Translations under genes and position numbers: made by a program
Notes under the pieces: model-generated
The model's database searches: none
What the model saw: the letters and a program-made list of their open reading frames with translations, nothing else
Told to the model about the DNA's origin: nothing
In this document: positions 2,231 through 14,800 of the stretch, in pieces
Numbering within the stretch: the stretch's first letter is position 1
Layout: each line of letters starts with the position of its first letter
DNA from: Gemmatimonadaceae bacterium
Lineage (GTDB): Bacteria > Gemmatimonadota > Gemmatimonadetes > Gemmatimonadales > Gemmatimonadaceae
Length of the DNA stretch: 64,000 bases
Assembly (NCBI GenBank): GCA_019637355.1
Contig: JAHBVT010000001.1
Span: 3,007,192 to 3,071,191, forward strand
Direction: 5' to 3'

Positions 2231-2308
2231 CAGGGCGTAAGTTAATGCCGACCGATGCGCGCGCCCCCATCCTTCCGCCGCGCGCCGCCCCGTAGCAGGA
2301 GACCGCCA

Positions 2309-3724
2309 ATGCCCATTCGCAGCTTCGCCTGCCGCGCCGCCCTGGCGCTGCTCGCGCTTCCGAGTCTCGCGCTGGCCCAGGCGCCGGCGCGTCCGGCGGC
2401 GCCGGTGGCGATCACCAACGTCACGGTCCTGACGATGGAGGGCGACCGCCGTCTCGCCGACCACACGGTGATCGTGCGCGACGGCCGCATCGCCGCGGTG
2501 GGACCCAGCGCCTCGACGCCCGTGCCCAGCGGCGTGACGCGCATCGACGGCCGCGGCAAGTTCCTGATGCCCGGCCTGGCCGAGATGCACGCGCACGTGC
2601 CGCCGGGCAATCCCACGAGCGAGCAGCTCGCGGAGATCATGTTCCTGTACGTCGCCAACGGCATCACGACGATCCGCGGGATGCTGGGCGCGCCGTACCA
2701 GATTGACCTCAAGGCGCAGTTGGCCAGCGGGGCGATGCTCGGCCCGCAGTTCTTCCCGGCCGCGCCGTCACTGAACGGCAACAGTGCGCCGACGCCGGAG
2801 GCGGGCGTCGCGCTGGTGCGCCAGGCGAAGATGACGGGCTACGACCTGGTGAAGATCCACCCGGGCGTGAGCCGCGCCACCTGGGACGCGTCCGTGGCGG
2901 AGATGCGCGCGCAGGGCCTCACCTTCGGCGGGCACATCCCGTTCGACGTCGGCATCGTGCACGCGATGCGCACGGGCATCGCGACGATCGACCACGTGGA
3001 CGGCTATCTCGAGGCCGCGGTGCGCGACTCGTCGGTGTACGCGCCCGGCAACCAACTGGGCGAGATCATCGATGCCGTGGACCCGGCGCGCTTTCCGGCG
3101 CTCGCGCAGATGGCGCGCGAACGGAATGTGTGGAACGTGCCGACGATGTACCTCTGGGAGAACTTCTACAACGACCGCACCCCGGAGGAGCTCGGCGCGT
3201 TGCCGGAGATGCAGTACGTCTCGCAGCAGCAGGTGAACGCGTGGATGAACCAGAAGCGCGGCCGCGCGCTGGCGGACGAGAACCAGCGGATGACGCCGGA
3301 GCGGCGCGCGCGCTATCTCGCGCTACGGCGCCAGATGCTGAAGGCGCTGGCGGACGCGGGGGCGCCGCTGCTGATGGGCACCGACTCGCCGCAGATGTTC
3401 AACGTACCCGGCTATGCCCTGCATCGTGAGTTGCAGGTGGCCGTCGCGTCGGGCCTGACGCCGCAGCAGGTGCTCGAGAGCGGCACGCGCAACGTGGGGC
3501 GCTATGTGCGCGAGAGCCTCAAGCAGGACGGCAGCTTCGGGACGGTGGCCGTGGGGCAGTGGGCGGACCTCGTGCTGCTCGACGCTGACCCGACGCAGGA
3601 CCTCGCGCACCTCACGCGCCGAGCCGGCGTACTGGTGCGCGGCCGGTGGGTGAGCGCCGAGGAGATCCGCGCGGGACTGGAACGAATCCGGACGCGTCAC
3701 GCCGCCGGGCGTCCGGGGAACTGA
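2309..3724 (+). CDS. Exported metal-dependent amidohydrolase
   Basis: The 471-residue protein starts at the ATG at 2309, seven bases after an AGGAG Shine-Dalgarno (2297-2301). A signal peptide ends near LALAQA. Amidohydrolase-superfamily landmarks appear in order: EMHAH (HxH metal site, about residue 94), a Lys in LVKIH (about 181, likely the carboxylated bridge), His in GGHIP (about 208), His in TIDHVDG (about 228) and Asp in GTDSP (about 356), followed by the C-terminal ADLVLLDADP segment. It resembles the imidazolonepropionase/prolidase-like exported group common in this phylum. The substrate cannot be deduced. The VOC gene follows two bases after its stop, so the two are probably cotranscribed. 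Confidence 0.92.
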   Translation: MPIRSFACRAALALLALPSLALAQAPARPAAPVAITNVTVLTMEGDRRLADHTVIVRDGRIAAVGPSASTPVPSGVTRIDGRGKFLMPGLAEMHAHVPPGNPTSEQLAEIMFLYVANGITTIRGMLGAPYQIDLKAQLASGAMLGPQFFPAAPSLNGNSAPTPEAGVALVRQAKMTGYDLVKIHPGVSRATWDASVAEMRAQGLTFGGHIPFDVGIVHAMRTGIATIDHVDGYLEAAVRDSSVYAPGNQLGEIIDAVDPARFPALAQMARERNVWNVPTMYLWENFYNDRTPEELGALPEMQYVSQQQVNAWMNQKRGRALADENQRMTPERRARYLALRRQMLKALADAGAPLLMGTDSPQMFNVPGYALHRELQVAVASGLTPQQVLESGTRNVGRYVRESLKQDGSFGTVAVGQWADLVLLDADPTQDLAHLTRRAGVLVRGRWVSAEEIRAGLERIRTRHAAGRPGN

Positions 3725-5523: not shown

Positions 5524-6537
5524 TCACTCGGCGTCGCGGAGCCCAAGACGAATGATGCGTTCGAGCAGCTTGGGGTAGGGCACGTCGTCGAAGTTGGCGG
5601 CGGCCGCGAACTCCTCGTGCTCGGCGATGTCCGGGTTCGGATTGGCCTCGAGGAAGTACAGCCGGTCATCGGCGTCGAGCCGGAAGTCGATGCGCGCGTA
5701 CCCTGTCAGCTCGAGAATCCGGTAGATGCGCTTGCTGTCGTGCAGCAGGCGCTCCTCGACCGCCGGATGCAGCTCCTGGGCGGCGCGGATGACGATGCCC
5801 TTCTTGGTCTGGTAGTCGGGGTCGTGCTTGGCCTTGGCCGTGGCGATGAGCGGTTCGTCCGGGTCGCCCTTCTCGGCGTGCAGCTCCCAGGGCGTGAAGG
5901 CACGCAGGCGATCGTTGCCCAGCACGCTCACGTAGAGCTCGCGGCCGTCGATGAACTGCTCGGCGATGGCATCGGTGCCCACGCGCTCGTGCACGAAGCG
6001 CACGCGCTCGGCCAGCTTCTCGTCGGAGTCCACGATGGAGGCCTGCGAGATGCCGGTGGACGAGTGCTCGATGAGTGACTTGACGATGAGCGGGAAGCTC
6101 AGGTGCCGCGGGCGACGCACCTTGCGGCCGATCGGGAACACCGCGAAGTCCGGTACCCGGATGCGATGATAGTGCAGCAGCTTCTTGGACAGCGCCTTGC
6201 CGCGCGAGAGCATCAAGCCGCGCGGATTGCAGCCGGTGTAGGGCACCTTCATCAGCTCGAGGAACCCGACGACGTTGTGGTCGTTGGTGGTCTCGCCGTG
6301 GAACTCTTCGAGCAGGTTGAAGACGATGTCGGGCTGGAGTACGTCCACGGCTTCGCGGATGGGGCGCAGTTCCCACTGCACGCCGAGCACGTGGACGTCG
6401 TGGCCGAGCCGACGCAGCGTGCCGATCACGTCGATCTCCGTCTTGCGCTCGTAGGCCTCCTTGGGCGTCAGCGAACTGATCACCTCCGGCGGCGCGAGGT
6501 CCGGGTGCGTGAGCACGAGGATGCGCAGCTTCCTCAT
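5524..6537 (-). CDS. ATP-grasp ligase, D-Ala-D-Ala-ligase-like
   Basis: A 337-residue ATP-grasp protein. The N-terminal preATP-grasp fold (ILVLTHPDL) is followed by NLLEEFHGE, SRGKALSKK, PLIVKSLIEHSSTGIS (ATP-binding lysine and glycine/serine loop), EQFIDGREL, YARIDFRL and FLEANPNPD (E297 and N299 as Mg ligands). The layout matches D-Ala-D-Ala ligases and RimK-like amidoligases that join an acyl-phosphate to an amine. It is the last gene of the TldD-TldE-metallopeptidase-ligase operon and overlaps the peptidase stop by ATGA (6534-6537). That context suggests peptide bond formation on a small peptide rather than cell-wall D-Ala-D-Ala, but this is inference. Confidence 0.88.
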   Translation of the reverse strand: MRKLRILVLTHPDLAPPEVISSLTPKEAYERKTEIDVIGTLRRLGHDVHVLGVQWELRPIREAVDVLQPDIVFNLLEEFHGETTNDHNVVGFLELMKVPYTGCNPRGLMLSRGKALSKKLLHYHRIRVPDFAVFPIGRKVRRPRHLSFPLIVKSLIEHSSTGISQASIVDSDEKLAERVRFVHERVGTDAIAEQFIDGRELYVSVLGNDRLRAFTPWELHAEKGDPDEPLIATAKAKHDPDYQTKKGIVIRAAQELHPAVEERLLHDSKRIYRILELTGYARIDFRLDADDRLYFLEANPNPDIAEHEEFAAAANFDDVPYPKLLERIIRLGLRDAE

Positions 6538-7553
6538 ACGGCGATCCAGTCGCGGCGGCCCTGCCCGACGAGGAAGCTCATCGTGCGGGCGGTGAGCAGG
6601 ACCATAAAGTCGGTGAGCAGCTGCCGTTCGGAGCCGACGACGCGGAGCTTGAGCTCGCGGCAGCGGCCGATCATATCGGTCAGCACCTGGTTGAGCGAGA
6701 ACTCGTATTCACCCGTCCAGCGGGACACGATGCGGCGGATGTCGGCGCGGTGCCGGCGGAGGAAGGCCGCCGCCGTGGGACGGTGGCGATGTCGCGGAGC
6801 GTTGGAGAACAAGCGGAGCAGGTCGTCGTCGTAGGTCTTGGGATACTCGACCGAATATATCGCGCGACGGTAGGTGTAGTGCTCGAACAGCGTGGTCTTG
6901 ATGCTGCGCAGCGGGTCGACGACGCTGCGATTGCGGTGCGAGGGGACGACGCCGGCGAGTTCCTGCATCAGGCGATCGACGTATTCGAGCTTGTGCAGCG
7001 CCGGCCAGCCGGCGTAGCGGCGCCGCCAATCGCTGCGCGGCTTGAGCCACACGGCGAAGGTCTCGGCGAAATCCTCGTCGGGATGGCTCTGGGCATACCA
7101 GCGGCGCAGGTGCTGCACGTACTTCTTGCTGGCGGGGTTCGGCCGGTAGGCTTCGGGGTACTTGGTGCTCGATTTCCCGAAGAGCCGCTGCCACTCGCGC
7201 CGCCGCTGGAGCTGGTAGCCGTGCTGGATGGCGTGCCCGCACTCGTGGCGCAGGATCTTCATACACTCGTGGTGCGAGCCGCCCTCCACCTCGATCAGCT
7301 GCGTGCGCTCCAGCCGCATCAACCGCGGGTGCAGCAGGTAGAAGGGCACCGCGAAGCCCGACACACCACCGGGCGAGAACCACTCGTCGCTGACCCACAC
7401 GTGCGGCTTGAGGCGCAGCCCGCGGTCCTCGAGTTCGCCGTGCAGCTCGTCGACACAGGCGCCGACCCAGGTGCCTTCGAGCGTGACACCCAGGTCGCGC
7501 AGCCGCAGCTGCATCAGGCGCGCATCATCCCAGCGCGCCCAAGGAAAACGCAT
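6534..7553 (-). CDS. Putative zinc metallopeptidase (HExxH)
   Basis: A 339-residue protein without a signal peptide. It contains RHECGHAIQHG, with the HExxH zinc site at H103, E104 and H107, preceded by a family-typical segment around PHVWVSDEWFSPGGVSG and followed by DEDFAETFAVWL, a likely third-ligand Glu region. It matches the gluzincin-like putative zinc-binding metallopeptidases of unknown substrate. The ATG at 7553 is chosen because it shares its A with the TAA stop of the TldE gene (7551-7555, TAATG). It is tightly coupled with TldD/TldE upstream and the ATP-grasp ligase downstream. Confidence 0.85.
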   Translation of the reverse strand: MRFPWARWDDARLMQLRLRDLGVTLEGTWVGACVDELHGELEDRGLRLKPHVWVSDEWFSPGGVSGFAVPFYLLHPRLMRLERTQLIEVEGGSHHECMKILRHECGHAIQHGYQLQRRREWQRLFGKSSTKYPEAYRPNPASKKYVQHLRRWYAQSHPDEDFAETFAVWLKPRSDWRRRYAGWPALHKLEYVDRLMQELAGVVPSHRNRSVVDPLRSIKTTLFEHYTYRRAIYSVEYPKTYDDDLLRLFSNAPRHRHRPTAAAFLRRHRADIRRIVSRWTGEYEFSLNQVLTDMIGRCRELKLRVVGSERQLLTDFMVLLTARTMSFLVGQGRRDWIAV

Positions 7554-8977
7554 TACACCGCGTCCGAGAGCGAGGTGAACGCAAAGTCCCGCGCGCGCAG
7601 GGCAGGGAACACGGCGCCGCTGCCGGTGCGTACCGACGGGCCCAGCGCATCCACCTTGTTGAGCACGAGCAGCGGCGAATCGTTGAACCGGAAGTTCTTG
7701 ATCGACCGCGTGATGCGTCCGTTCTCCACCAAGAACGTGCCGTCGCGGGTGAGTCCCGTGTACACCAAGGTGCGCTGGTCCACGGCCCGCAGGTACCACA
7801 GCCGCGTGACGACGATGCCGCGCTCGGTGCTGCGGATCATCGCATCTATAGAAGAGTCGCCGCCAAGCATCTTGAAGCCGCCGCCCCCGCCGCCGAAGCC
7901 TCCGCCCCCACCGGTGGGGCGCACGCCGCGGCGCTGCGCCCACACACGGTCGTACGAGAGCTGCTTCAGCGTCCCGTTCTCCACCCACACTTCGCGGCCC
8001 AGCGGCAGGCCGTCGTTGTCGAAGGGCGCGCCGAGCACCTGCGGGTCGGCCGGATCGCTGACCAAGGTGACGCGTGAGTCGAAGATGCGCTCGCCCAGCT
8101 TGGTGCCGCCGCCGGGTCGCGACATCGCCGAACGTCCTTCCTCAGCGGCACGCGCGCCGAGCGTCCCGCGCACGGCGCCGAGCAGGTCCGCCGAGGCCTG
8201 CGGCTCGAAGATCACCGTGTAGCGGCCCGGCTCCACCGCGCGCGGTTCGCGTGAGGCGCGTGCGCGCTCCACCGTACGCGTGGCCATCGCGCGGAAATCG
8301 ATTTTGCTCCAGTCGTTCTCGTCGGCGCCGGTCCACGACGACCCCGTGCCATCGGTGGTGCGCACGGTGAGCGTGTAGTTGGCGCCGGTACTGCGGTGGA
8401 AAGCGAAGAGGCCGGCGCTGTTGCCGATGGCCCGCACGCTGGCGCCGCACTCGATGAAGCCGGCGACCTGCAGGTCATTGGCCCGGCGCGAGAGCTCGAG
8501 CGCGGTGAGCGCCGCGCGCGCGCGGTCCTCGGCGGAGAGCTGCGCCGTGCTGTCGAACCACGCCGGGATCGCCGTGTACTGCTGCGGTCCGAGCTCCGGC
8601 AGGGATTCCGGATCCTCCGGCGCAAGCCGCGCCAGGGCTTCTGACTGCGCGACTGCCTGCTCGAGCCCGCGCGGCGAGAGGTCGTTGGTGAGCACCGTGG
8701 CGCTACGCTTGCCGACGAACGACGTGATGCTCAGCGTCGCGTTGTCGGTGACGCCCGAGGTGGACATCTGGTTGTCGGCGAAACGGACGTTGGTGTCGTA
8801 GCTGCTGTTGACGCTGACGCGGCAGGCGTCGGCCCTGGAGGCGCGCAGCGCGCGCTGGACGACATCCTCGCATTCGGCGCGCGTGAGGACCACGGCCTCG
8901 TCGAGCACGCCGAAGCGTTCGGCCTCGCGCCGGGCGATGAGGCGCTTGGGCGCGCCGGCAAAGGGATTGGCGCTCAC
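7553..8977 (-). CDS. TldE/PmbA-type subunit of a TldD/E protease
   Basis: The 474-residue protein resembles the PmbA/TldE fold: N-terminal alternating region with YDTNVRFADNQ and SGVTDNATLSI, and a C-terminal region with GERIFDSRVTLVSDP and LVYTGLTRDGTFLVENG. It lacks the zinc motif HExxxH, as expected for the non-catalytic partner of the TldD-TldE heterodimer, which degrades unstructured peptides. It has no signal peptide, whereas the TldD partner upstream has a Tat signal. A Gly-rich insert (about residues 354-369) lies between conserved blocks. Its ATG overlaps the TldD stop by ATGA (8974-8977). Confidence 0.88.
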   Translation of the reverse strand: MSANPFAGAPKRLIARREAERFGVLDEAVVLTRAECEDVVQRALRASRADACRVSVNSSYDTNVRFADNQMSTSGVTDNATLSITSFVGKRSATVLTNDLSPRGLEQAVAQSEALARLAPEDPESLPELGPQQYTAIPAWFDSTAQLSAEDRARAALTALELSRRANDLQVAGFIECGASVRAIGNSAGLFAFHRSTGANYTLTVRTTDGTGSSWTGADENDWSKIDFRAMATRTVERARASREPRAVEPGRYTVIFEPQASADLLGAVRGTLGARAAEEGRSAMSRPGGGTKLGERIFDSRVTLVSDPADPQVLGAPFDNDGLPLGREVWVENGTLKQLSYDRVWAQRRGVRPTGGGGGFGGGGGGFKMLGGDSSIDAMIRSTERGIVVTRLWYLRAVDQRTLVYTGLTRDGTFLVENGRITRSIKNFRFNDSPLLVLNKVDALGPSVRTGSGAVFPALRARDFAFTSLSDAV

Positions 8978-10599
8978 AGCGTCACCCCCGTGTTGATCAC
9001 GTTGATGTCCTTGAAGCGGCAGGGCGGGCAGCCGTGCGAGACGGCGTTGGCCTGGCCGGGCTGGCCCTTGCCGTCGTTGAAGGTGCCGCCGAGTTCGTAG
9101 GACGACTTACCGCCGATGAGGTCGATGGAGTTCCAGAACTCGGGTGTGCGCATCACGTAGGCGACGTCCTTGAGCTGGCCGACGATCTTACCGCCGCGCA
9201 CCTCATAGCAGATCTGCGCGCCGAACTGCGCGTTGTAGCGCTGCTGGTCGATCGAGTACGACGCGCGGCCGATCATTGCGATGCCCTTGTCGGTGGCGGC
9301 GATGAGGTCGTCCCAGCTGCGGTCCACGCGCTGGTCAGGCACGATGCTGACGTTGGGCATCCGCTGGAAGGCGACATCGCTCCAACTCTGCGCGTAGGCG
9401 CAACCGTGCGAGCGCACCGGCATCCCGTTCTTCTCGTACCACGGCCGCAGCCACTCGGCCTGCTCGCGCGTGGTCTGGTAGTCCCAGAAGACGCCGTTCT
9501 TGACGATGTCGAACTCATCCGGCTGCACGCCGTCGTCGTCATAGCCGATGGTGGCCAGCGCGCCGGCCTCGGAGCGGTCGCCGCGGATGGTGAGGTGTTC
9601 GGGGCCGAGCTTGAGCTTGCCGAGCACGTCGTCGGGCGGGGCGATGAAGCTGGTGCCGGCGTAGTTGGCCTCGTAGCCCATCGCGCGGTCAAGCTCTGTG
9701 GGGTGCCCGATGCTCTCGTGGATCGTGAGGAAGAGTTGCGACGGATGCAGGATGAGATCCCAGCGCCCGACTTCGACAGACTTGGCGCTGAGCTTCTCGC
9801 GCGCCTGCTCCGCCCAGACGGTGGCGTTGTTGACGATGTCGGCGTCGAGCACGTACTCCCAGCCGCGCCCCATCGGCTGCACGACTTCCGGCCCGCGCGT
9901 GGCGACCTGTGTGCGGTCGTCGCTGATGGCGGTGACGGACATCGTGACCCAGCTGCGCACGACGTCCTGGCTGATGACCGAGCCTTCGGTGTTGGCGTAG
10001 CTGCGCTCTTCCTTGACGAAGGAGAGGTTGGAGTTGACGAAGCGGATGTTGCTCACGCGCTGCGCGGCTGCATTGGCCTGGAAGAGCAGCGCGACTTTCT
10101 CCTCGACGGGCACGGACCACGGGTCGATCGTGTAGCTCGACTTCCACGTGGCGTTGGGATGCGTGGGTGCGGCGGCGAGGCGGACTTCGCGATCGCGTGC
10201 CACGCGGTTGGCGCGGGCGAGCGCCACGGCCTGCCGCGCGGCGCGCGCGACGCCGTCGGTGGTCAGCGCCCGCGTGGCGGCGAAACCCCAAGTACCGTCC
10301 ACCAGCACGCGCACGCCGCAGCCGATGGTGTCCGTATCGAGCACGTTGGTGACCTGCTGTTCGCGGGTGCCCAAGTTCTGGCGGCGTTGGCGCTGGACGC
10401 GCACGTCGGCCCAGGAAGCGCCCGCGAGCCTGGCGGCGTTGAGCGCCTCCATCAACAGGACGCGGACCTGCGGGTCCGGCTCGGTGGTGGCGGTGAGAAT
10501 CGGCGAGCCCGATTCAGCGGCCTCGAGGCGTCGGGACGCGAGCGCGACGGCGCTGGCGGCGAGGCCGGTGGAGGCGAGGAACTCACGACGTGAGGTCAA
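8974..10599 (-). CDS. TldD-type metalloprotease with Tat signal
   Basis: The 541-residue protein opens with MTSRREFLAST, a twin-arginine motif followed by a short Ala-rich hydrophobic stretch, so Tat export is predicted. The catalytic HExxxH motif of TldD is intact in TIHESIGH (about residues 293-298) with the downstream EANYAGTSF. The closing GCPPCRFKD...TGVTL matches the zinc-side C-terminus of the family. TldD with TldE cleaves small peptides and matures some RiPPs in characterised systems. Export is unusual, since classic TldD/E is cytoplasmic. It heads an operon with TldE, a zinc peptidase and an ATP-grasp ligase. Confidence 0.92.
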   Translation of the reverse strand: MTSRREFLASTGLAASAVALASRRLEAAESGSPILTATTEPDPQVRVLLMEALNAARLAGASWADVRVQRQRRQNLGTREQQVTNVLDTDTIGCGVRVLVDGTWGFAATRALTTDGVARAARQAVALARANRVARDREVRLAAAPTHPNATWKSSYTIDPWSVPVEEKVALLFQANAAAQRVSNIRFVNSNLSFVKEERSYANTEGSVISQDVVRSWVTMSVTAISDDRTQVATRGPEVVQPMGRGWEYVLDADIVNNATVWAEQAREKLSAKSVEVGRWDLILHPSQLFLTIHESIGHPTELDRAMGYEANYAGTSFIAPPDDVLGKLKLGPEHLTIRGDRSEAGALATIGYDDDGVQPDEFDIVKNGVFWDYQTTREQAEWLRPWYEKNGMPVRSHGCAYAQSWSDVAFQRMPNVSIVPDQRVDRSWDDLIAATDKGIAMIGRASYSIDQQRYNAQFGAQICYEVRGGKIVGQLKDVAYVMRTPEFWNSIDLIGGKSSYELGGTFNDGKGQPGQANAVSHGCPPCRFKDINVINTGVTL

Positions 10600-10700
10600 G
10601 CGAGGATCTCCGGAGAGCGGGATCGGGCGCGGGGGGAGAATGTGGCCCCGGTGCGCCGGGATGGCAAACGCGGTCTACGGGTACTCTACGTGACGCGAGG

Positions 10701-11093
10701 TCACGACGCTGGGAACCCCGTCGTAAATGCCACCAGCCACCCCGGCAGCTCAGCCAACTGGTCCTTCTGGAAGAACCCGATTGCCCCCGCATCGCGGGCA
10801 GCGCGTCGCAGCGGGTCGCCGGCGTAGTCGGTCACGATTACGATCTGCGCCGATGCGTCGTTAAGTCGGATGGCACGAGTCGCCGTCAGCCCATCGGTAC
10901 CGCGCATCCCGATGTCCATCAGCACCAGGTCGGGGCGGCGCTCGCGGAACTGCCGGATCGCGACGCTGCCGTCGTCACATTCGATGATCTCGCCGGCGAT
11001 GCCCGCGACCAACGATGCAATCAACGCGCGCATACTGGCGCTGTCGTCGACGATCATCACGGTGGGCCGATTGGGGGAGGACGCGAAGCTCAT
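10701..11093 (-). CDS. Single-domain response regulator (receiver only)
   Basis: A 130-residue CheY-like protein. The acidic pair is D16/D17 (IVDDSAS), the phosphoacceptor is D60 (LVLMDIG), T88 lies in VTD and K110 in FFQKD; all five conserved positions are present. No output domain follows. The ATG at 11093 is preferred over an upstream in-frame start because a receiver normally begins there and a palindromic site (11149-11170) would otherwise abut the start. It lies downstream of the kinase/NarL pair on the same strand and 101 nt upstream of the TldD operon. Its partner kinase is probably the neighbouring propeller sensor. Confidence 0.9.
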   Translation of the reverse strand: MSFASSPNRPTVMIVDDSASMRALIASLVAGIAGEIIECDDGSVAIRQFRERRPDLVLMDIGMRGTDGLTATRAIRLNDASAQIVIVTDYAGDPLRRAARDAGAIGFFQKDQLAELPGWLVAFTTGFPAS

Positions 11094-11148
11094 ACGCGAA
11101 CGATGCGCGGGCCGCCGGACGCACACATCGGGTGCGGTCCCGGGGGGT

Positions 11149-11170
11149 GCATAGGGGGTGCCCCCTATGC
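11149..11170. promoter_or_regulatory. Palindrome GCATAGGGGG-TG-CCCCCTATGC, candidate operator
   Basis: Perfect 10-bp arms flank a 2-nt centre. That centre is too short for a hairpin loop, which argues for a protein-binding operator rather than a terminator. It lies 55 nt upstream of the receiver-gene ATG and 39 nt after the NarL-type regulator gene. A near copy sits in front of the kinase gene at 14917-14936. The likely ligand is the NarL-type regulator encoded next to it. Confidence 0.6.
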
Positions 11171-11209
11171 CGCGGGGAGGCTCATCTTGCCAAGCGGCGC
11201 GCGACCCGC

Positions 11210-11857
11210 TCAGCGCAACCGCGCGCGATGCTCCACGGCATAGCGGAGCAGTGCATTGGAGCCTTTGAGCCCGAGCTTGCTGATGATGTGCGAGCGGTGA
11301 TGCTCCACGGTCTTGGGGCTGATTCCCAACTCCTTCCCGATCTGCTCGGTGGTGTGCTCCAGCGCCACGAGTCGCAGGACGCGGCGCTCGGCGGGACTCA
11401 GCGCGTCCAAGTTGCCGCTCACGCTCCCGAGTCGTGCGCCGTCCGCCGCGACCAAGTGCCCCGCGAGCGTCGGCGCGACGTAGGAGCGCCCTTCAGCCAC
11501 CAGGGTGAGACAGGTGATGATGTCGGGCACGGCGGCATCCTTGAGCATAAATCCCTTGGCGCCGAGCGAAAGCGCGCGCCGCACGATGTCGCCGTCATCG
11601 TGGCCGGTGAGCATCACGCAGGCCGTGGGGAGCGCGGCGCCGACGACCGCGGCGAGCACGTCGAGCCCATTCTTCTTCGGCATATCCACGTCCAGCAACG
11701 CCACGCGCGGCTTGTGGCGCTCGATCAACGCGAACGCTTGCTCGCCGTCGTTGGCCTCGGCGACAATCGTGAAGCTGCCGTCCGAGCGAATGGCATCCAC
11801 GAGCCCGCGGCGAAACAGCGGATGATCATCGGCGAGCAGAACGCTGCGGGCGCTCAC
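11210..11857 (-). CDS. NarL/LuxR-type response regulator
   Basis: This 215-residue protein has a receiver domain with D10/D11, phosphoacceptor D56 (ALLDVDMP), T84 and K106 (GFMLKD). A LuxR-type helix-turn-helix follows: LSPAERRVLRLVA, TTEQIGKELGISPKTVEHHRSHIISKLG (about 150-200). It is a phosphorylation-controlled DNA-binding regulator. Its ATG overlaps the stop of the kinase gene by ATGA (11854-11857), so kinase and regulator form a cognate pair. Two similar GGGGG/CCCCC palindromes flank this pair and are plausible targets. Confidence 0.94.
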   Translation of the reverse strand: MSARSVLLADDHPLFRRGLVDAIRSDGSFTIVAEANDGEQAFALIERHKPRVALLDVDMPKKNGLDVLAAVVGAALPTACVMLTGHDDGDIVRRALSLGAKGFMLKDAAVPDIITCLTLVAEGRSYVAPTLAGHLVAADGARLGSVSGNLDALSPAERRVLRLVALEHTTEQIGKELGISPKTVEHHRSHIISKLGLKGSNALLRYAVEHRARLR

Positions 11858-14800
11858 AGTGCAGTCCGCGTGAGCGTCGGCAACACGAAGCGGTACTCAC
11901 AGCCCTCGCCGGGTGCAGAGGTCACCTGCCAGGTGCCGCCCAGCAAGCGCACGCGTTCGGCGATGCCGGTCATTCCGAAGCCCTCGGCGCCGCTGGGCGA
12001 GAATCCGCGTCCGTCGTCGCGCAGTCGGAGCATCACCTCGGAGCCCATCACGGTTGCCTCCACCCAGAGTGTAGTCGCCTGCGCGTGCTTGATCACGTTG
12101 TTCACGACCTCTTGGACGATCCGGAACACGTGAATGCGTGCATCGTCGTCAAATCGCTCGTCCATGGACGCGAGCGTGAGGTCGAGCGTCAGCCCTGCCG
12201 CCTCCGTTGCCTGCAGGAGTTGGGATTCGATTGCCTGGGTCAGCCCGAGGCGATCGATTTGGTGCGGCCGGAGGGCCCGCGCGAGGCTGCGGACACTCTC
12301 CAGCGCGCCTTGGGCGGCGCCACCGATCAGCTCCAGGTGGTGCCGCGCGTCGTCCGGCACGCTGTCGGCGCGCAGTGCCAGCGTGGAGCGATTCGTGACC
12401 ACGAGCAGTTCCTGGCTCAAGCCGTCGTGCAGCTCACCGGCGATGCGCTTGCGTTCGCTTTCCTGTCGATCCAACAGCTCGCGCGCAAAGGCCTCGCGCT
12501 GTGCGCGCTCGCGGGCGAGAAGCGCGAAGCGTCGCCGCACCAGCTGCACGGCCAAGAGCAACACGAGCAGGCTGAGCAATGGTGTGAACCACCAGCGCTG
12601 CCAGACGAAGGGCACCACGTTCACGGCCAGAGTAGTCGGTGTCGTGGTCCAGTCGCCCCCGCGATTTGCTGCGCCGACGAGGAACCGGTGCTCGCCGGCC
12701 GGCGGCGCCGTGTAGTACGCGACGCGTCGCGCACCCACGTCCACCCAGTCGGGGTCGAAGCCCTCGAGCCGATATCGAAAGCGGGTCTTGTCCGGCGCCG
12801 TGAACGTCGGAGCGGTGTAGTGGATCTCCAACTGTCGCGTTCCCGGCGGCACGACGAGGCGCGTGCTGACGTCGAGCGGCACGCCGTCCGCCGTCGCACG
12901 GAGGATCCACGTTTGGGGAGCGGCGGCCACCTCGACAACGCGCGTCGGGTCGATCACGGCGACGCCCTCGATGGTGGCAAACCACAGGGTGCCGTCGCCG
13001 TGGCGAACGCCGGAGGGCTGGAATCCGCCGTTGGCCTCGGCGTTCAGCATCCCGTCGGCGCGGTCGTAGAGCGTGGCGCTGAGCCGCGGACGACGGCCAT
13101 GCGCGACGGCCTCAAGATCCGCGACGCCCGCACGGAAGATTCCGTGATTCGAACTCATCCAGAAGTTGCCGGCACCGTCTGGCACGATGGACGAGAGAAA
13201 GTCATCTGGCAGCCCGCGCGCGGCATTCACGGTCGTAAAGGTCGTCCCGTCAAACCGGGAGAGCCCGCCACCATAGGTGCCGAGCCAGAGTGCGCCCGTA
13301 TCATCTCGCACGATGGCCCGTACGTAGTCGTGGCTGAGGCCGTCGGCGGCGGTCCACCAGCGCGTAGAGTCGCCGCGAATGCGGCCGAGTCCGCTCACGG
13401 AGCCCACCCACACCGTCCCGTCCGTGTCCTCGACGAGTGCGCGGATGCTGCGCGTTGCGGCCACATCGCCGGCGTGCCAGCGCGCGAGCTGGCCGTTGTG
13501 CAGTACCGCGAGACCGCGGCTGGTGCCGACCCACAGCCGTCCATCGCGCGCGGCAAGCAGCGCGAAGACTTCGTCGGCCGGGAGGCCGTCGGCCATCCGG
13601 AACTGGCGGAGCGAGCGGTCCGCGCGCACTTCGTGTAGGCCACCGCCGTGCAAGCCGATCCAGAGACTTCCCGTGGAATCGTGCGCGAGCGCCCAAACGC
13701 AGGGCGAGGGAGTCCCGATGGCCGCCACGGTGACTGCGGTGACGGTGGTGCTGCTGCCGCTGCGCACGCGATGCAGTCCGCCGCAGTTGCCGCCCACAAT
13801 CATCTCGGCGCGCTGGCGGTCGGGAATGAGTGCGGCCATCGAGGCACCCCGCAGGCCGTCGGCCGCTGTCAGGGTGCGCACGAACTGTGCGCGCAGGCGA
13901 AACAGGCCGCGGACTTCGCTGCCCATCCACAGATTCCCTTCGCGATCGAAGGCCAGCGTCTGCACGCGATCCGCCAGCACGGCGATACGCTCCGCGCCTG
14001 CGCCCTCGCGCAGCGCCTCCGGGCTCACGCGCCAGACTTCGCCGCGCGGGAAGGTAGCGTACCACAACGCGCCGTCCGGGGCGTTGACCATCCCCGAGAC
14101 GAACCACCCGGGCGGCCGCAGCGCGGGCTCAACCAGCAGGAAGCGGTCGTCGATCTCGCGCCACATCCCCCTGCCACTGCGCGAGCGATGCCAGCGACGT
14201 CCCTGCGAATCGCGGATCAGGAAGTCACCGATGTCGCGCGCCCAGTGCGCGTCGGAGGTCGCGACGTCGAACGCATTGCCGCGTCGCGCGACACTCCCCG
14301 CCCAGAACATGTTCACCCAGATGCCGTCCTGTCCGTCTGCGACGACGCCGGAGACGGCAGCGGACCTGAGCCCGTCCGGCGTGCCGTAGGTGCGGAGCGA
14401 ATCTCCGACGAGTTGCACGAGCCCGAGCTGTGTACCGGCCCACACGACGTTCGCGGAATCCACGAACACCGCGTTGACCAGATCTGAAGGGAGTCCATCC
14501 ACCGCGCGCCACGTCGTGAAGCCGTGCGCGCTGCGGCGAATCAGTCCGTGCTCCGAGCCGATCCAGAGATCGCCGCCGGACCCGCCGGCGATCGACAACA
14601 GGCGCTCCGAGCCTAGCCCCGGATGTTCCGCGCGCGAGAACGTCTCAAACTGTATGCCGTCGAAGCGCGCCAGTCCGCCGTTGGTCGCAAGCCAGAGGAA
14701 CCCGTCGCGTCCCTGATGGATGGCGTTGACGGTGCTCTGTGGCAGCCCGTCGTCAATCGTCCACTGCTGCAGCGTCCATCCACGCGCGACGCTGACGCCC

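Follow-up and report, generated by a model that had tools for sequence, protein, structure and literature searches.

TldD and TldE of Escherichia coli form a heterodimer in which only TldD holds the metal site, which is active only with both subunits and which matures microcin B17 (PMC5810440). ATP-grasp ligase genes that are linked to a peptidase are already known from a survey of graspetide ligases (PMC8939145). Here we analyzed a minus-strand operon of four genes that encodes a TldD/TldE pair, a zincin metallopeptidase and an ATP-grasp ligase resembling D-alanine-D-alanine ligase (Ddl). It lies in a stretch of 64,000 nucleotides (the window; contig JAHBVT010000001.1, positions 3,007,192 to 3,071,191) from a Gemmatimonadaceae bacterium. 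The source genome belongs to the Gemmatimonadota, measures 3.15 Mb and has its nearest relatives in Gemmatimonas and the Gemmatimonadaceae. We found that peptidase and ligase form a conserved pair in four phyla, and that a co-directional TldDE upstream of this pair is confined to the genus Gemmatimonas.

Like the E. coli proteins, TldD and TldE of the window have a three-domain architecture (PmbA_TldD domains 1-3 in both), are encoded by adjacent genes and carry the HExxxH motif in TldD only. Unlike its E. coli counterpart, this TldD has a signal for the twin-arginine translocation (Tat) route, an Asp in place of Cys454 and no linkage to a microcin gene. The ligase shares with Ddl the fold, the Ddl C-terminal domain and the Mg/ATP residues, while the peptidase shares with Peptidase_Mx (PF15887) an HExxH motif and a downstream E-rich motif region (residues 101-171). 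Branches 7 and 8 of the graspetide survey likewise place an ATP-grasp gene beside a peptidase with no local precursor (PMC8939145); this likeness is one of described gene arrangement, and the text of the survey has no mention of D-Ala ligases, TldD or Gemmatimonas. All these protein families are known; a self-contained, cross-phylum pair of peptidase and Ddl-like ligase was not found described in the literature searched, and a prior mention by Iyer et al. 2009 (ATP-grasp amidoligases) is possible.

A peptidase and a Ddl-like ligase adjoin in four phyla

A preliminary description, made from the window alone, had proposed four co-translated genes, and all four open reading frames were found where it had placed them, with Pfam matches that back the name of each protein (Table 1). 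TldD starts with TTG, about 8 nt after a GGAG. The joins between TldE and peptidase (TAATG) and between peptidase and ligase (ATGA) are as first described, with ATG as the start codon of both downstream genes, whereas the join between TldD and TldE is GTGA and not ATGA, a 4-base overlap in which TldE starts with GTG. Because the overlaps recur in relatives they are not due to chance, and they support co-translation. The next stop lies 78 bp downstream of the operon and about 100 bp of space is present upstream.

The proposed link of the peptidase to a peptide-bond-forming ligase is real, as evidenced by the adjacency of the two genes across phyla. Of 80 loci from one genome collection, 78 have the ligase gene after the peptidase gene, mostly with the same overlap; one exception is cut at a contig end (L021) and the other is a true exception (L064). 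Within the Gemmatimonadota the pair is present in 59 of 60 loci, the sole exception again being at a contig end. The locus sets behind these and the following counts overlap in part, so that the counts are not fully independent. About a quarter of the sampled Acidobacteriota and Planctomycetota genomes encode the peptidase, and the ligase adjoins it in 30 of 40 loci, with one further locus cut at a contig end. The peptidase is less common in Alphaproteobacteria sampled across the class (3 strong matches among 190), although it occurs in many Bradyrhizobium. The pair is therefore a widespread conserved unit in Gemmatimonadota, Alphaproteobacteria, Acidobacteriota and Planctomycetota.

The adjacency is kept in three peptidase subfamilies despite changes of gene order or strand. 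Subfamily 2, about 40% identical to the subfamily of the window (subfamily 1), has the order peptidase then ligase. Subfamily 3, distinguished by N-terminal zinc ribbons that subfamilies 1 and 2 lack, has the reversed order in 11 of 12 loci, and at four loci (L101, L144, L145 and L193) the two genes are adjacent on opposite strands. Peptidase and ligase have also diverged in parallel: the correlation of their distance matrices is r = 0.97 over the whole set, and for the 41 non-redundant pairs of subfamily 1 it is 0.83 (Mantel test, 0 of 2000 permutations). Their trees agree on the main groups. One Gemmatimonadota row, L019, is sister to the Alphaproteobacteria in both trees. Kept together through changes of order and strand, the pair almost certainly has one biochemical job.

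Clustering of neighboring proteins of at least 80 aa revealed no third gene conserved beside the pair across phyla. Three candidates for such a partner, a transketolase, a methyltransferase-like protein and an alcohol dehydrogenase, were ruled out, as they are conserved only locally, and a defense system was ruled out by the lack of any PADLOC match. No plasmid-borne relatives were found. A conserved protein of 257 aa is encoded upstream of subfamily 2 peptidases (L130, 10312-11085, minus strand, with equivalents in 21 loci); it has no Pfam match and is methyltransferase-like by eye. Near the operon of the window, on the opposite strand (2255-3724, plus), lies an amidohydrolase gene whose product matches an Xaa-Pro dipeptidase model below the cut-off and has a signal-like N-terminus.

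Table 1 Genes, motifs and residues of the operon, with positions in the window.
Feature	Position	Strand	Details
TldD-like metalloprotease subunit, catalytic	8974..10599	-	541 aa; PmbA_TldD_1st/2nd/3rd; HESIGH 294-299; Asp509
Tat-type signal of TldD, MTSRREFLASTGLAASAVALASRRLEAA	10516..10599	-	RR-x-F-[LIVM] in all full-length TldD relatives; TatC in genome
HExxxH metal site of TldD (HESIGH, residues 294-299)	9703..9720	-	sequence; motif defined in PMC5810440
Asp509 of TldD, at the place of E. coli TldD Cys454 (third metal ligand)	9073..9075	-	sequence; Asp substitution: PMC5810440
TldE/PmbA-like non-catalytic partner	7553..8977	-	474 aa; PmbA_TldD_3rd E 2.7e-43; signal and HExxxH absent
Zincin metallopeptidase	6534..7553	-	339 aa; PF15887 E 9.7e-9; AlphaFold pLDDT 90.6; zincin-type structural match; no signal
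HExxH of peptidase (HECGH, residues 103-107)	7233..7247	-	H103, E104, H107 invariant in alignment A1
Glu164 of peptidase, in DEDFAETFA	7062..7064	-	invariant; candidate third zinc ligand
D-Ala-D-Ala-ligase-like ATP-grasp ligase	5524..6537	-	337 aa; PF07478 E 5.5e-25; Ddl fold (Foldseek E 8e-26); no signal
EANPNPDIA motif of ligase, where true Ddl has EANTLPGMT	5623..5649	-	alignment with true Ddl

Active sites of ligase and peptidase

The structures in the PDB that match the Ddl fold of the ligase share 25% identity or less with it, and its scores are far below the cut-offs of all NCBIfam Ddl models (125 bits against a cut-off of 243 for the best model). Five true Ddl sequences of Gemmatimonadota, one of them from the same genome, were aligned with the ligase. 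The ATP/Mg residues K153, R282, D284, E297 and N299 are kept; E297 is nearly invariant (90% or more) and the other four are invariant. Unlike Ddl, the ligase has neither the N-terminal GGSSAERDVS nor HGGxGEDG nor the Tyr after the second Lys. Within EANTLPGMTxxS, the TLPGMTxxS of Ddl is replaced by PNPDIAEHEEF, its final Ser included. Since the ATP/Mg residues are kept while the Ddl substrate motifs are lost, this alignment most likely describes an ATP-grasp ligase with substrates other than those of Ddl. A housekeeping Ddl is ruled out by the motifs, the NCBIfam cut-offs and a separate true Ddl encoded elsewhere in the source genome. The same genome encodes a fusion of an ATP-grasp (PF07478) with a SET domain (482 aa), which overlaps a second ATP-grasp gene (384 aa; L166, own genome C1:2880000-2897000, 7206-9805, minus strand). 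Adjoining genes encode a type I glutamine synthetase and probably a MATE-type transporter; as a cluster for amide formation this is unusual.

The peptidase matches PF15887 above the gathering score (35.4 bits against 27), but the match is partial and covers model positions 90-165 only, about 75 of 236. It lacks the match to zinc ribbons that a full-length member of the family has (as in L167), and no NCBIfam model was matched. HExxH and DEDFAETFA are conserved in alignment A1, which takes in 53 relatives. The AlphaFold model is best matched by an M34 zincin domain (Z 8.7, 136 residues), spanning peptidase residues ~21-202, and by Pro-Pro endopeptidases (PPEP) with Z about 7. This predicted structure supports a metallopeptidase core, restricted to the shared zincin core, and says nothing on the substrate. 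A sequence search of the PDB gave no credible match. Among the Alphaproteobacteria sampled, no Ddl-like gene adjoins either a relative that matches PF15887 in full length or the other weak matches.

Could the two enzymes turn over a small molecule? The ligase would then be a dipeptide or amide synthetase whose product the peptidase hydrolyzes. Ddl-like ligases join free amino acids, and the Ddl fold of this ligase, its changed substrate motifs and the occurrence of the pair as a self-contained two-gene module in many phyla are all consistent with such a role. However, the pair has neither an exporter nor a dedicated amino-acid enzyme linked to it, and the zincin resembles enzymes of extended peptides (PPEP and M34 types), though the fold shows no substrate. 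We therefore regard small-molecule turnover as quite unlikely.

TldDE and its place beside the pair

The N-terminus of TldD reads MTSRREFLASTGLAASAVALASRRLEAAES, a Tat-type signal with a twin-arginine motif and a hydrophobic stretch. The motif RR-x-F-[LIVM] occurs in every full-length TldD sampled and in no TldE, and TatC is encoded in the source genome. Signal sequences are absent from TldE, peptidase and ligase. The Tat signal reported for TldD, and its absence from TldE, thus hold throughout the sampled relatives. An Asp at the place of the third-ligand Cys is in accordance with the replacement described for Gemmatimonas (PMC5810440), while the match of TldD to the Arch_mtprotase_TldD model is below the cut-off. 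Judged by these motifs, TldD and TldE are a normal pair of catalytic and non-catalytic subunits, with predicted activity. It is plausible that TldE is co-exported while bound to folded TldD.

Further TldD genes were seen in the source genome and its relatives. A tandem TldD-TldE-TldD-TldE array is present in the source genome (L164, C1:2383000-2402000, 7502-13556, minus strand), with similar arrays in other Gemmatimonadaceae; together with L165 this gives four Tat-type TldD genes. A divergent paralog, 31% identical (L005 and L165, 8501-9919, minus strand), keeps the twin-arginine motif and is seemingly the sole full-length TldD without HExxxH. In L091 (2384-4018, plus strand) the Tat signal of TldD is followed by a lipobox-like GACASG, perhaps that of a Tat lipoprotein.

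Conservation of the four-gene order had been set beforehand as a test of the idea that the operon is one pathway. The order does not extend beyond the genus Gemmatimonas, where TldDE stands upstream of the pair and on the same strand in the window and in L008, L009, L012, L016, L102-L104, L126 and L127. Even there the two halves can be separated, by a gene for a beta-lactamase-fold hydrolase in L008 and by an insertion of about 2 kb with a DUF2442/DUF4160 gene pair in L103 (5085-7160), both between TldE and peptidase. In other genera the closest TldDE orthologs (TldD about 70% identical) occur without the pair (L156-L163), and conversely the pair occurs in genomes without any TldD match (e.g. 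G010, G031 and G065). The pair and TldD do not co-occur: among genomes searched for the two, 29 of 57 that have TldD also carry the pair, against 9 of 14 that lack TldD (Fisher p 0.55). TldDE was found near the pair in none of the 40 Acidobacteriota and Planctomycetota loci.

A looser association is seen within the Gemmatimonadaceae. Of the 11 genera with both TldDE and the pair, 5 have them no more than about 6 kb apart, and three geometries occur: upstream on the same strand, convergent after the ligase (g6, g14 and g20; L091, L092, L135, L141 and L143) and divergent upstream (g19; L018/L112). The alcohol dehydrogenase, which in other cases comes after the ligase, sits further away in g6, g14 and g20, so an insertion, or a loss in the others, explains the arrangement.

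A single pathway across the membrane would have TldDE make short peptides outside, to be recycled or re-joined by peptidase and ligase in the cytoplasm, or would run in reverse. The overlapping joins and the proximity within genera argue for it; the missing co-occurrence, the occurrence of either part without the other, the intervening genes and the Acidobacteriota and Planctomycetota loci argue against it. We consider this pathway unlikely, and the four-gene link of the preliminary description stands only as the looser association. We slightly favor the explanation that the four genes are two separate units, a cytoplasmic cut-and-ligate module and an exported TldDE that was secondarily linked to it in Gemmatimonas.

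Some observations weigh against this explanation. The presence of TldDE near the pair in three geometries, taken as three independent events, exceeds the chance expectation with p 7e-5, a crude post hoc binomial estimate from incomplete contigs in which the count of independent events was set by judgement; full independence of the two modules is thus not proven. Nine mostly divergent peptidases of the Acidobacteriota and Planctomycetota stand alone (L195, L196, L201, L207, L208 and L225-L228); here the enzyme either can work with no ligase gene next to it or has decayed. Moreover, PF15887 is itself a 'putative' peptidase family.

The preliminary description had also pointed to ribosomally synthesized and post-translationally modified peptides (RiPPs), with a small precursor nearby. 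TldDE and the peptidase would remove leaders and the ATP-grasp enzyme would make an amide in a ribosomal peptide, as in microcin B17 and graspetides. The known role of TldD/E in microcin B17 (PMC5810440) and the linkage of some graspetide-type ATP-grasp enzymes to peptidases where no precursor lies nearby (branches 7 and 8 in PMC8939145) speak for this. The operon itself leaves no room for a precursor, given its overlapping joins and short flanks, and clustering of the pair's neighbors, which took in genes of at least 80 aa, found no conserved small gene in any phylum. No cross-phylum linkage to a transporter, methyltransferase or C39 peptidase is seen either, and the ligase is Ddl-like. With neither room in the operon for a precursor nor a conserved neighbor of at least 80 aa, RiPP maturation is the weakest alternative and very unlikely.

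Proposed roles of the two modules

In the favored two-module explanation, one transcript would carry module A, the conserved core of peptidase and ligase, and module B, TldD and TldE. The zincin and the Ddl-like ATP-grasp enzyme of module A would both work in the cytoplasm and share a substrate, a peptide or protein end that the peptidase would cut, while the ligase would activate a carboxylate with ATP and join an amine to it to give an amide. The sequence of events may be trimming followed by ligation, or addition followed by removal. TldD of module B would enter the Tat route, and TldE probably crosses the membrane bound to it. Outside the cytoplasm, TldDE would then degrade or trim small unfolded peptides. 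In Gemmatimonas, module B would have been placed before module A in the same expression unit; any exchange between the two is conjectural.

A more specific and tentative form of this explanation, which we think is probably not correct as a whole, casts the two enzymes as eraser and writer (or trimmer and extender) of a modification, not yet described, at peptide or protein ends. They would act in this way in four phyla and, in Gemmatimonas, be coupled to a Tat-exported TldDE working on those peptides outside the cytoplasm.

TldDE, with a Tat tag on TldD and none on TldE, is well suited to a clean test of whether the Tat route exports a bound partner along with its substrate. Family matches would label the pair 'D-alanine-D-alanine ligase' and 'putative metallopeptidase'. 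If the pair does modify peptide or protein ends, it would be a new writer/eraser pair for bacterial biology; either way, such Ddl-like ligases should not be counted as Ddl.

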